A stretch of 64,000 bases of DNA from the NCBI GenBank assembly GCA_020831845.1, contig JAFIFV010000103.1:1-64000 (forward strand), written 5' to 3'. Of this stretch, positions 148 through 27,306 are shown one piece after another. The notes under the pieces were generated by a model that was not told the DNA's origin, did no database searches, and saw nothing but the letters and a program-made list of their open reading frames with translations. Both the position numbers and the translations under genes were made by a program. Numbering within the stretch: position 1 is the first letter of the stretch; every line of letters begins with the position of its first letter. The DNA comes from Ectothiorhodospiraceae bacterium. GTDB taxonomy: Bacteria; Pseudomonadota; Gammaproteobacteria; Nitrococcales; Aquisalimonadaceae.

Positions 148-1170
148 CTAATCCGTCCAGCTGAAGCTCACACTGGCGGGGTCGACATTACCGGAGGCAT
201 CGACGGTCACGTTGCGGGTCTGGCCATAGAACACCGGATCCCCGTCGACGCTTGGATCCACGAGATTGCCGTCCTCGCCCACCGCGCTGTCCCGGCCGGA
301 CTGGCAGGTGAAAGCCACCGTATACTCACCGGGCTCAACGAACCCGATGGTGAACGGAACCGAATCGCCGGTTACGCTGGTATCCACGACGGCGGTGGTG
401 ACCGGGCCGCCCTCCTCCGGCGCCAGATCGGCCGAGATCGGCCGTGGGGTGGCGTCGAAGTCGCGATAAAGATAAACGGCGCTGCCCCAGGGCTGGGAAC
501 CCGCCGCCGTGTTGTAGCAACCCTCGGCCTCGGTGAGTTCCCGCTCCACACTTCCCTGGATATGGCCCACGGTCAAGCCATCAATCAGCCTGAACGTCGG
601 TCGCATCATGAACTGGCCCGCTCCGGTCCTGTGAATGGCCTTGCGAAGATCCAGATCGATAACGAAGCTGGCCTCGCCGTTCGCCGGCACGGTAAACCCG
701 CTGACCAGCTTGAGCCCGGTCTGCTGGGCGCTGGGAATGAACAGGGGATACTCGCCGGGGTTGTACGGCCCCGGATTCTGGCCGATCACAATGGAGGCAT
801 TCTCCTCGTTGACGCCGTCCGCCTCCACATGAAGCCGGATCCACTCGTAGTTGCCGGCGGGAACTTCGAAACCCTCCACTAGCGAGAAGGCATCGGCGCC
901 CTGATAGTCCAGCAGGTTGATGCGCTCCGGTTCTTCGATCTCGTAGGTCACGGACGAGCGGCTGGCCGGTTTCAACTCCACCGACTCGACCAGCAGATAT
1001 ACCGCATCTGCGTAATCCGACGGCGCATCGGTGATGGACAGGCTGAGCGTACCCGTCTGCTCCCCACTTCCCCCGCCCGATCCGTCCCCGTCGCTCAGGC
1101 AACCGGCCAGCAGCATGGAGGCACCAAACAGTACCGCAACCTCGATTCCCGTTCTCCGCAGTTCGATCAT
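148..1170 (-). CDS. DUF4382-type outer-membrane lipoprotein
   Basis: The 340-residue product starts with a short charged segment and a hydrophobic stretch ending in the lipobox LLAGC (Cys24). The residue after Cys is Leu, not Asp, which favours outer-membrane delivery. After a Gly/Ser linker, residues 38 onward (GTLSLSITDAPSDYADAVYL) have the DUF4382 signature: a beta-rich domain that begins TDAP and continues with V-x-SVEL. The C-terminal half resembles a carboxypeptidase-regulatory-like beta sandwich. I chose the ATG at 1170 because AGAGAGGA lies just upstream; an earlier in-frame start would add 22 residues in front of the signal peptide. It stands alone, so its partner and substrate are unknown. 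Confidence 0.8.
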   Translation of the reverse strand: MIELRRTGIEVAVLFGASMLLAGCLSDGDGSGGGSGEQTGTLSLSITDAPSDYADAVYLLVESVELKPASRSSVTYEIEEPERINLLDYQGADAFSLVEGFEVPAGNYEWIRLHVEADGVNEENASIVIGQNPGPYNPGEYPLFIPSAQQTGLKLVSGFTVPANGEASFVIDLDLRKAIHRTGAGQFMMRPTFRLIDGLTVGHIQGSVERELTEAEGCYNTAAGSQPWGSAVYLYRDFDATPRPISADLAPEEGGPVTTAVVDTSVTGDSVPFTIGFVEPGEYTVAFTCQSGRDSAVGEDGNLVDPSVDGDPVFYGQTRNVTVDASGNVDPASVSFSWTD

Positions 1171-23848: not shown

Positions 23849-24238
23849 CTAGTGAACGCGCCCTCCGGCGCTGCGGGAGGCCGCGGACCGCTTCCGTGAC
23901 GCCGAGGGCTTCTGCTGTGTTTGCCAGCGGTTGGCCCAGAAAACCAGCGGCTTCAGCGACTCGAACAGCGCCTGCCCCTCGTCCGTCAGCCGATAGCCGC
24001 CGCGGTGTTCAACCAGTCCCTGCCCCCGCAGTTCGCGCAGCCGGCTATTGAGTACGGTGGGAGACACGCCACCGCATAACTCCTGCAGCTCACGAAACGT
24101 GGTCTCGCGCCCCGCCCGCAACTCCCAGACGATACGCAGAACCCAACGCCTGCCAAGCAGGTGGAACAGATCCTCGATCGGCTGATCGGAGTCTGCCCCG
24201 TTCATCGCCGGGGTCCCCTTGCGAGCACTTTGCGACAT
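23849..24238 (-). CDS. HxlR-like winged-helix transcriptional regulator
   Basis: The 129-residue protein has a HxlR/MarR-type winged helix: LFHLLGRRWVLRIVWELRAGRETTFRELQELCGGVSPTVLNSRLRELRGQGLVEHRGGYRLTDEGQAL. The usual N-terminal Cys-Pro of HxlR redox sensors is absent, so it may sense a ligand or act without an effector. A Lys/Arg/Ser-rich tail follows. AAGGGAAG precedes the ATG. It lies 70 bases downstream of the large lipoprotein gene on the same strand and may be co-transcribed with it and the outer-membrane barrel. Its targets are unknown. Confidence 0.82.
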   Translation of the reverse strand: MSQSARKGTPAMNGADSDQPIEDLFHLLGRRWVLRIVWELRAGRETTFRELQELCGGVSPTVLNSRLRELRGQGLVEHRGGYRLTDEGQALFESLKPLVFWANRWQTQQKPSASRKRSAASRSAGGRVH

Positions 24239-24308: not shown

Positions 24309-25898
24309 TCAGAAGCGCTGCGCGCAGGCGGCACTGGACGCCGGTATGTCATGACTATCAATGGATTCAAAATCGTGCTGCGACCGATCCACCGCCATCT
24401 CTTCGGACTTGCCGTCGTACCCGAAGGTGAAACGCCAAGTGTCACCATCCGTGCCGCTGCGCAGACGCAGCGAAGCCGTTTCCTCGAAGGAATCGCCCAG
24501 GGCACGCAGTGTCAGCAACAGGACGTTGTCGCGGGGCTGCGACCATTCGCCGGTCAGCCGCAGGCCTTCCGAGGTGCTGTCGGCCAGGTCACTGAAATCC
24601 ACGGATTCGAATTCGCCAAGAATGCAGACGGTGAGAGGACCGTCCGCATCGGGCGCCCCTTCCCCGAAATAGAGGGTGATGACTCCGTCGGCGGAGTCAC
24701 TGTCCACATTCACCACCAGTCGCTGGCCGGCGACCCGAGGCAGGCCTTCATTGATCACCGCCGGCCGCAGATCAACCGGATCGCCGCTGCCATGGGTCTG
24801 GATGATGTTTCCCAGCGCGACCAGATCGAGCCCCTGCCTCAGTTTGGGTTCGCGCCCCAACAACTCCTCGAATGCGGCACGCAGTTCCCTCAACCGCCGG
24901 AGCTGTTCCTTTCCGACGCTGCGGCGCCCCTCCGTAATCGCCGCCGCGCTCACAAACAGCATGCGCGCCTCCGCAACAGCACGCGTCCCCAGCCCCCCGT
25001 TACCAGAGATTCCGCTACCAGAGGAGGAGACCTCTGCTTCGTCCACCATCATGTCCCGCAGGAACAGCAGCTCCGCGGCCAGAGTCTCCGCCAGCACCCC
25101 AGCAGAACCGTATGAGGGCGCGATGGTCTCGATGAGCGCCAGGAACTCCGGCTCCAGAGCACCCTGCTCCAGCGAACGCCAGCCGGCGAGAGCATCCTCC
25201 GAGCTCCGCAAGACCTCCCGCAGCCCCAAGTACACGGCGGCATGCAGATCGGCGGCCAGTTCGGGAGGCAGGGCATCCGGGGTGAGATCCAACTCGTCGA
25301 ACAGCGCCCGCACCAGGTAACTGACAATGGCGTGTATTTCCACCGACAGCTCGGCCAGCGGAGCCTGGAAGCCGCCCGCCACCCCGTGATCGTCCCAGAC
25401 GTCCAGCGTCTCGGGAGAGATGCGGCCAGAGACCGTTGTCAGCGGCGTCACCGCCAGAATGTGGTTGCTGTCGCTGTTGCCGATGCTGATCCTGCGGCTC
25501 AGGCTGCCTTCGAACGGCACGCCCAGGAACAGGTCATACCCCCCCTGAACCCGGAGCGTCGCCGTGGTCAGCGAGGACGGCAGCCGCAGGCAGTGGTGCT
25601 GCGGGCCTTGTCGGCAGTAGTCCCGCGCCTCGGCGATCAGCGTGCCATCGGCGGCGTAGACCTCGGGGCGATAGGAGAAGAAACCGAATGCGTCCGTCAA
25701 CGCGCGCGGCTCGTACTGGTCGCGGCGGTTGTTGTCGTTGAGGTCCGCGTACACGCGGGCTCCGGCAATGTACCCGTCCACGGCCACCCCGCTCACCTGC
25801 ACGTTGCGGGAGTCGCCGCCGTCCGGGTTGCCGGAGTCGCTGAAGCAGCCGGTCAGGGCCAGGCTGGAGACGATCAGTGCGGCAGACAGTCTGTTCAT
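24309..25898 (-). CDS. large lipoprotein of unknown function
   Basis: The 529-residue protein has a lipoprotein signal ending LALTGC (Cys18). The residues after Cys are Phe-Ser, which predicts outer-membrane placement. Residues 33-75 (VSGVAVDGYIAGARVYADLN and the DNNRRDQYEP stretch after it) form a beta-sandwich segment of the type found in surface adhesins and carboxypeptidase-regulatory-like domains, with an Asp/Asn-rich loop that may bind calcium. The middle is helical (about 190-370). The last 150 residues look beta-rich. No enzyme motif is visible. It follows the TraF_2-type barrel gene by 46 bases, so the two are probably one operon and may form a complex at the outer membrane. The specific function is unknown. 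Confidence 0.75.
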   Translation of the reverse strand: MNRLSAALIVSSLALTGCFSDSGNPDGGDSRNVQVSGVAVDGYIAGARVYADLNDNNRRDQYEPRALTDAFGFFSYRPEVYAADGTLIAEARDYCRQGPQHHCLRLPSSLTTATLRVQGGYDLFLGVPFEGSLSRRISIGNSDSNHILAVTPLTTVSGRISPETLDVWDDHGVAGGFQAPLAELSVEIHAIVSYLVRALFDELDLTPDALPPELAADLHAAVYLGLREVLRSSEDALAGWRSLEQGALEPEFLALIETIAPSYGSAGVLAETLAAELLFLRDMMVDEAEVSSSGSGISGNGGLGTRAVAEARMLFVSAAAITEGRRSVGKEQLRRLRELRAAFEELLGREPKLRQGLDLVALGNIIQTHGSGDPVDLRPAVINEGLPRVAGQRLVVNVDSDSADGVITLYFGEGAPDADGPLTVCILGEFESVDFSDLADSTSEGLRLTGEWSQPRDNVLLLTLRALGDSFEETASLRLRSGTDGDTWRFTFGYDGKSEEMAVDRSQHDFESIDSHDIPASSAACAQRF

Positions 25899-25944
25899 TT
25901 GGCGTACGCTCCGTCGGGCCCGGAACCCGGATCTGTTCGGCGGC

Positions 25945-27306
25945 TCAGAAGTACAGCTCCAGGCTCACGCTACCCATCGCGCTGCGGGGCACCGTATCGC
26001 CATCCACATCCACCGTCTCCGTGGAAACGGCGGCGTCCATATTCAGAATGCGGAAAAAGGTCAGCCCGCCGGTGTAGTAGCTCAGTTCCGTACCCGCGAG
26101 ATTGGTGCGATACCCCAGGCGGAAACCGGGTATCAACCAACCGGATCCGGCGTACCCGCCGCTGATGGATGCCCATTGGTGCTCATCCCCCACCGCATCA
26201 CGGGTGGAATTCACGTCATAGGCGACGCCCAGCGACCAGTTCCTGTTGGCGGTGAAAATACCGCCTTCCAACTGGAGCTGGCGCTCCATGGTGTAGGTCT
26301 CGTTCAGGGAAATGCGGTCACCGAACGAGGCGGCGGTGAAGCAGTTTCTGCGCGCCACCTCCGACAGACCCGGGTCGTTGCAGTTCTTGCCCACGGACGG
26401 GTAATCGAACTCCGGTTCGTTCAGGTTCCGGATGGTGCCCCCCAGCTGGTAATGTCGGGCAACCCAGAGCGCACCCAGATCCAGGCCCACGGCCGAGCTG
26501 GTCTTGCGGTTGCGGTCGAAATCATCTTCCAGGCCGTCGGAGAAGTCCTCGCCATCGTCGGTGTCTTCCAAGGCGATCACACCCTTGGCCAACTCCAGCT
26601 TGTAGTAGTTGAGCCGGCCACCGACGAACAGGGCGCCCTCGGGGCGTTGCAGCACGCCGGCGCTGTATCCCAGCGCGAGCTGATAACCGACGGCACCCTT
26701 GACATAGGCCGAGGTGCGGGACTGCAGCTCGAAATCCCCGCCGCCCACCGGCTGTATCTCGATGGGTGCATCCAGGATGCGGCCGCGCGCACCGCCCACC
26801 CCCCTGGCTTCGAAACTGATCGCGCCTCCGAGCATCGACACGTTGGCACCCATCGGCGTGAACGGAAGCTGCACCGAGCCTCCCGCCTTCACGTAGCCGT
26901 CCCGCCCCACTTCGAGCAGGAACTGATCGAATTCGTCCTTGAGAGCCTCCGCTTCTTCCAGGGTCAGATCATCGCGATCCAGCTCTTCCTCGAACCGCTC
27001 CGCGCGTTCAATCAGGTTATCGACGCTGCCCATCTCGTAGCCCAGGCTGACAGCCCCGAGGCCGAACCAGACGCCTCGCCGCTCGGAGGCCGCCGCCGAG
27101 GCGGGGTTATTACCCGTTGCCTGCAGGGTCCGCGGGTGGCTAACGCCTCCATGCGTGATGTCCTGGCCTATGGGAATGGATACCACCCCATGTGCTGCTG
27201 CAGTTCCGACCGGACCCAGTGCCAGCAACGATAATGCGAGCGCCCACATGGCACCGCGCCGAAACGGGCAAGCCCCCCCCGACACCCTAGACGGGCAAAC
27301 CTTCAT
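25945..27306 (-). CDS. TraF_2-type outer-membrane beta-barrel protein
   Basis: The 453-residue protein has a signal peptide (basic start, then WALALSLLALGPVGTAAAHG). It resembles the 'conjugal transfer protein TraF' domain family (PF13729-like), which is mostly chromosomal and unrelated to F-plasmid TraF function. Support comes from the early NPASAAASERRGVWFGLGAVSLGYEMGSVDN, a coiled segment (about 75-105), and many alternating beta strands ending in SLELYF, a typical barrel C-terminus with terminal Phe. The start at 27306 has GGGGTG in front; an internal ATG at 27249 is an alternative. It heads the operon with the lipoprotein. No conjugation gene is nearby. Confidence 0.72.
   Translation of the reverse strand: MKVCPSRVSGGACPFRRGAMWALALSLLALGPVGTAAAHGVVSIPIGQDITHGGVSHPRTLQATGNNPASAAASERRGVWFGLGAVSLGYEMGSVDNLIERAERFEEELDRDDLTLEEAEALKDEFDQFLLEVGRDGYVKAGGSVQLPFTPMGANVSMLGGAISFEARGVGGARGRILDAPIEIQPVGGGDFELQSRTSAYVKGAVGYQLALGYSAGVLQRPEGALFVGGRLNYYKLELAKGVIALEDTDDGEDFSDGLEDDFDRNRKTSSAVGLDLGALWVARHYQLGGTIRNLNEPEFDYPSVGKNCNDPGLSEVARRNCFTAASFGDRISLNETYTMERQLQLEGGIFTANRNWSLGVAYDVNSTRDAVGDEHQWASISGGYAGSGWLIPGFRLGYRTNLAGTELSYYTGGLTFFRILNMDAAVSTETVDVDGDTVPRSAMGSVSLELYF

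Follow-up and report, generated by a model that had tools for sequence, protein, structure and literature searches.

An outer-membrane barrel of the Pfam family TraF_2 (PF13729) and a large lipoprotein encoded directly behind it constitute a real and conserved two-gene unit, previously unnamed; a search of the literature for PF13729 or for the pair found nothing. The arrangement was seen in a window of 64,000 nucleotides (by window we mean this whole stretch, from contig JAFIFV010000103.1 of an Ectothiorhodospiraceae bacterium) and recurs at 13 other loci, which is far beyond chance. Our preferred reading, to which we give a probability of roughly 0.55, is that the barrel and its dedicated lipoprotein make up one surface unit in which the lipoprotein acts on a barrel of the FadL superfamily. 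The parts of this reading differ in strength: a functional partnership between the two proteins is very probable, a physical complex is somewhat favored, and for a channel-type function of the barrel the balance is even.

Gene order in the window

Rechecking of the open reading frames placed the barrel gene, the lipoprotein gene and the gene for an HxlR-type winged-helix regulator exactly where the first-pass annotation had put them, with the same strands and gaps (Table 1), including the 70 bp between the lipoprotein and regulator genes. Translation of the barrel perhaps starts at M20 (27249), where conservation in the family begins. This genome has one TraF_2 gene, and its flanks are metabolic, with genes for a 4HBT thioesterase, a LysR protein, an acyl-CoA dehydrogenase and an SDR on one side and for an aldehyde dehydrogenase and an alpha/beta hydrolase on the other. 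No terminator-like site was predicted in the spacer between barrel and lipoprotein, and the base composition of the lipoprotein gene (GC 0.653, GC3 0.80, like its neighbors) gave no sign of a recent horizontal gain.

Table 1. Features of the barrel-lipoprotein locus, with positions counted from the first letter of the window.
Feature	Residues	Position	Strand	Remarks
TraF_2 barrel gene		25945-27306	minus	453 aa
Barrel signal peptide	roughly 1/20-38
NPA motif	67-69	27100-27108	minus	equivalent by order to the NPA of the FadL hatch
Predicted extracellular loop 4	295-342	26281-26424	minus	contains Cys309 and Cys322
Barrel-lipoprotein spacer		25899-25944	minus	46 bp
Lipoprotein gene		24309-25898	minus	529 aa
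Lipoprotein N-terminal beta domain	about 35-155
Lipoprotein helical middle	about 155-385
Lipoprotein C-terminal beta domain	about 385-529			with G-x-W
HxlR-type winged-helix regulator gene		23849-24238	minus	129 aa; PF01638

Conservation of the gene pair

Single-protein searches covered 144 relatives, and profile searches were run on two samples, 369 genomes drawn from the class and 398 drawn from the phylum, after which the neighborhoods were read. The searches gave 14 loci, in 13 gammaproteobacterial genomes, that encode a full-length homologue of the lipoprotein, and none was found outside the Gammaproteobacteria in the genomes sampled. All 14 genes follow a TraF_2 barrel gene directly, at its 3' end and on its strand, which supports the earlier proposal of a unit of barrel and lipoprotein; as far as the lipoprotein is concerned, the contrary outcome of rare co-occurrence or of genes lying apart was absent. 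From the end of the barrel gene to the start of the lipoprotein gene the distance ranges from an overlap of 86 bp to a gap of 46 bp (-86 to +40 bp in the 13 other pairs), and such spacers are consistent with one transcript for barrel and lipoprotein. The pairs occupy about eight unrelated gene contexts in which the pair alone is constant, and flanking genes within 5 kb are common only to members of the same family-level groups. Barrel and lipoprotein distances correlate (r 0.62, Mantel p 1e-4), a co-divergence that shared ancestry alone would give.

The barrel

The barrel matches PF13729 over residues 67-364 with 159.5 bits (E 1.2e-46; the curated cut-off is 25 bits). Its AlphaFold2 model, built from three sequences and of modest confidence (pLDDT 56, pTM 0.59), shows 14 main strands joined by short turns at one side of the barrel and by long loops at the opposite side. 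The best fold matches of the model in Foldseek and VIA-align were FadL, TodX, TbuX, CymD, PorV and BamG, with Z of 17-20, and the VIA matches to FadL-type barrels span 246-317 residues; OmpG and other barrels scored lower, at Z of about 15 and below. With FadL, TodX and CymD (Z about 17-20) the barrel thus shares the 14-stranded fold, the NPA motif of the hatch, a similar hatch length and a C-terminal Phe. Among 17 aligned barrels N67 and P68 of the motif are invariant and A69 nearly so, and an NPA or NPG string is present in 40 of 43 barrels. The NPA of the FadL hatch is described as essential for the substrate-induced change (PMC8407342). From the predicted cleavage site, which was judged by eye, to the motif there are about 30 residues, as in FadL. 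The differences from these proteins are at the sequence level, where Pfam with matches reported up to E 1 gave TraF_2 alone and neither FadL nor Toluene_X, profile searches of PDB sequences gave no match for barrel or lipoprotein, and identity in the structural alignment is about 10%; unlike FadL, TodX and CymD, the window barrel is also followed by a dedicated lipoprotein gene. We conclude from the modelled fold and the motif that it is probably a FadL-type outer-membrane channel of the FadL superfamily.

The Pfam name TraF_2 is misleading for this protein, since the fold is FadL-like and carries the NPA motif and neither conjugation genes nor a plasmid match were found. The name of PF13729 is the only likeness to TraF of the F plasmid, whereas the window protein has the predicted fold of an outer-membrane barrel. 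We therefore rejected an identity as a conjugation protein: the flanking genes that were scanned include none for conjugation, as was already noticed at the first pass, the neighbors are metabolic, and neither barrel nor lipoprotein had a match in 72,556 plasmids.

Every paired barrel has the predicted extracellular loop 4 with its two cysteines, as do about 8 of the 27 unpaired barrels; the lipoprotein-free sister of the window barrel has lost the loop along with the lipoprotein. This distribution favors the extracellular side, with ancestry as a confounding factor. At conserved extracellular positions, unpaired barrels nested among paired ones were not clearly different from paired barrels treated by leave-one-out.

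The lipoprotein

The signal peptide and lipobox ascribed to the lipoprotein were confirmed, with LTGC18 following a typical signal peptide. In E. coli, Asp at position +2 favors the inner membrane, a rule that may not hold in these bacteria; the window lipoprotein has Phe at this position (LTGC-F), which fits the E. coli rule for the outer membrane, and Asp is found at +2 in four paired lipoproteins (L037, L038, L039 and L040). A short tail after the lipobox has a conserved Asp 6-10 residues past the Cys. The three domains of Table 1 have borders read from the alignment and from a low-confidence single-sequence model (pLDDT 37, unusable for the fold), and the C-terminal domain carries G-x-W and F-x-F-x-G patterns. 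The richness in Asp and Asn that had been noted did not hold for the protein as a whole, as D+N make up 10.4% of it against 10.2% of the barrel and 10.3% of a nearby binding protein; D/N richness is confined to the N-terminal loop DLNDNNRRD and to the tail after the Cys.

Mean pairwise identity in the lipoprotein family is about 27%. The window lipoprotein had no match in Pfam, NCBIfam or PDB sequences, and ten lipoproteins scanned against Pfam and NCBIfam showed no convincing domain, so that by sequence the lipoprotein appears to be a new family, absent from both collections. Weaker homologues match the N-terminal beta domain only and have no adjoining barrel, as read directly at three loci (L143-L145) and judged from coordinates at the rest. 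This domain is evidently common to other lipoproteins, some of them large. On the contig of the window, outside the window itself, a 1073-aa frame (G000:C130:75204-75551) also contains it (E 7e-7).

Barrels without the lipoprotein

The tree of 44 barrels contains 14 that are paired, about 28 that have no lipoprotein and two (L036 and L043) that were left unjudged with contig ends close by. About two thirds of the barrels are without the lipoprotein, and the partnership is therefore optional. Presence of the lipoprotein switches at least 7 times across the tree, and paired barrels do not form one clean clade; repeated loss of the lipoprotein is the simplest reading, repeated gain being also possible. 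The closest relative of the window (G002, of the same genus) has the same flanks, without the lipoprotein and without the HxlR gene, and keeps the order aldehyde dehydrogenase, barrel, SDR, acyl-CoA dehydrogenase and LysR at 60-80% identity. Its barrel (L033:5218-6561) is only 51% identical to that of the window (25945-27306), an unusually fast divergence when most flanking genes of the two species are 70-80% identical, and has lost the two-Cys loop. A Vut_1 transporter gene directly follows the barrel in G007, whereas G004 of the same genus has the order barrel, lipoprotein, Vut_1, and one barrel of G029 (L047) is without the lipoprotein that is present at its counterpart in G019 (L040). At the sensitivity of a single-protein search the lipoprotein was not found elsewhere in G002 or G007, and a search for its remnants in two sister loci lacking the gene gave chance-level matches only. 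The dependence appears to be one-sided, in that the lipoprotein needs the barrel but not the other way round, because all 14 lipoproteins adjoin a barrel and sister loci differ by the presence or absence of the lipoprotein. Such close relatives with and without the lipoprotein are natural test pairs. Tandem pairs of TraF_2 barrels without a lipoprotein, as in Marinomonas vulgaris, were also observed (L032:5854-8731, G545 contig C25 and G560 contig C1).

Discussion

The comparison originally drawn for this locus was with BamA/D and LptD/E. The idea of a unit of barrel and lipoprotein stood, but the fold matches make FadL, PorV and BamG-BamH the apter comparison, and BamG-BamH is, by analogy, what we would regard as the nearest solved precedent for the pair. 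In this recently described part of the Bacteroidota BAM complex, a FadL-family barrel was solved with a surface lipoprotein bound via its extracellular loops, the conserved N-terminus of BamH docking on the BamG barrel, and BamG2-BamH2 are in a putative operon (PMC12578637). The window pair likewise joins a FadL-type barrel to a lipoprotein, which is a likeness of design and not of membership. Compared with FadL, BamG is extended at its N-terminus by about 10 residues, which thread through the lateral opening (PMC12578637); with the cleavage site placed by eye, the window barrel lacks this segment. BamG is also thought to be essential (PMC12578637), whereas the window-type barrel is absent from most genomes. 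Moreover, BamG-BamH belongs to Bacteroidota and the window pair to Gammaproteobacteria, and the lipoproteins are likened without a sequence relation.

In the mechanism that we propose, the barrel alone would be a FadL-type channel or would bind a hydrophobic molecule. With its lipid and short acidic tail as the anchor, the lipoprotein would sit beside the barrel and could dock on it, most likely at the extracellular loops, where it may help to capture the ligand or gate the barrel. A stricter form, in which a gammaproteobacterial FadL-type barrel holds a surface-exposed lipoprotein in parallel to BamG-BamH of Bacteroidota, is at this stage rather doubtful. If this stricter form held, the pair would be an unrecognized surface assembly, and complexes of a barrel with a lipoprotein are considered uncommon in this phylum. 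The result also corrects a misleading name, defines a lipoprotein family and gives the lipoprotein a partner, and with a counterpart in Gammaproteobacteria it would become possible to ask in a second phylum whether FadL barrels are repeatedly docking platforms for lipoproteins.

Slam barrels export lipoproteins encoded beside them, and PorV shuttles type IX substrates. The barrel could similarly export, display or assemble the lipoprotein, which would then be cargo and perhaps an adhesin, a possibility that we consider unlikely. Presence of the lipoprotein depends on the barrel and not the reverse, as expected of cargo, and other large lipoproteins carry the same N-terminal domain as this one; in addition, the close fold matches include PorV, PorV and PorP/SprF have the same FadL-like fold, and paralogous TraF_2 barrels match the PorP_SprF profile weakly (E 1e-4 to 5e-4). 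However, the window barrel itself has no PorP_SprF match, type IX signals or machinery were not seen in the neighborhoods, and the lumen of a FadL barrel is plugged and narrow. As with Slam, a barrel gene adjoins a lipoprotein gene, but in Pfam the window barrel has no Slam (DUF560) domain, the stretch N-terminal to its strands is not long enough to hold TPRs, and it is of a different family.

Still less probable, in our judgment, is that both proteins are made together in one envelope response and do not bind, adjacency being kept by a shared promoter. Loci with the barrel only are common, as this explanation would have it, but pairing is kept in about eight contexts that share no other gene, with constant order and spacing, and co-regulation alone rarely yields adjacency at every one of 14 loci. 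Just behind it, and about as improbable, we place an arrangement with the lipoprotein on the periplasmic side, where it would tether or gate the barrel from within as an accessory comparable to PorK or to a partner linked to peptidoglycan. Outer-membrane lipoproteins of such a class mostly face inward by default, and a periplasmic protein with a LytR_C domain is found in the same cluster of Halorhodospira-like relatives; against this, the two-Cys loop of all paired barrels is predicted to be extracellular.

The regulator gene downstream matches PF01638 HxlR (E 1.1e-12, Pfam) and had been taken at the first pass as the unit's own regulator, a claim that our comparison does not support. None of the other 13 pairs was seen to adjoin an HxlR gene, which rules it out as a cognate regulator for the family, and its best homologue among 59 relatives (52%) belongs to G034, where it and the pair occupy separate contigs. 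A three-gene unit with a dedicated regulator is therefore highly improbable, even though in the window the three genes follow one another closely on a single strand and the regulator and lipoprotein genes are jointly missing in G002. The HxlR gene is probably an incidental neighbor and not part of the unit.

Other TraF_2 neighborhoods

Other genes were found beside TraF_2 barrels in the loci that were read. In Halorhodospira-like relatives, the gene immediately upstream of the barrel (L038:2559-3854, L039:8690-10171 and L044:8287-9513) encodes a protein with a LytR_C domain (E 5e-7 to 1e-9), and in L038 and L044 a second TraF_2 barrel precedes the LytR_C gene in a larger envelope cluster. Small lipoproteins with a weak YbjQ-like C-terminal motif (RcsF-like by eye) lie beside TraF_2 barrels at L040:4124-4780, L044:9586-10239 and L047:7759-8607, and these are possibly alternative partners of the barrel. 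A second, smaller TraF_2-like barrel is convergent to the main barrel in L139, L140 and L141 and lies near it in L055 and L058, and at these five loci it adjoins a kinase gene resembling fructosamine kinase.
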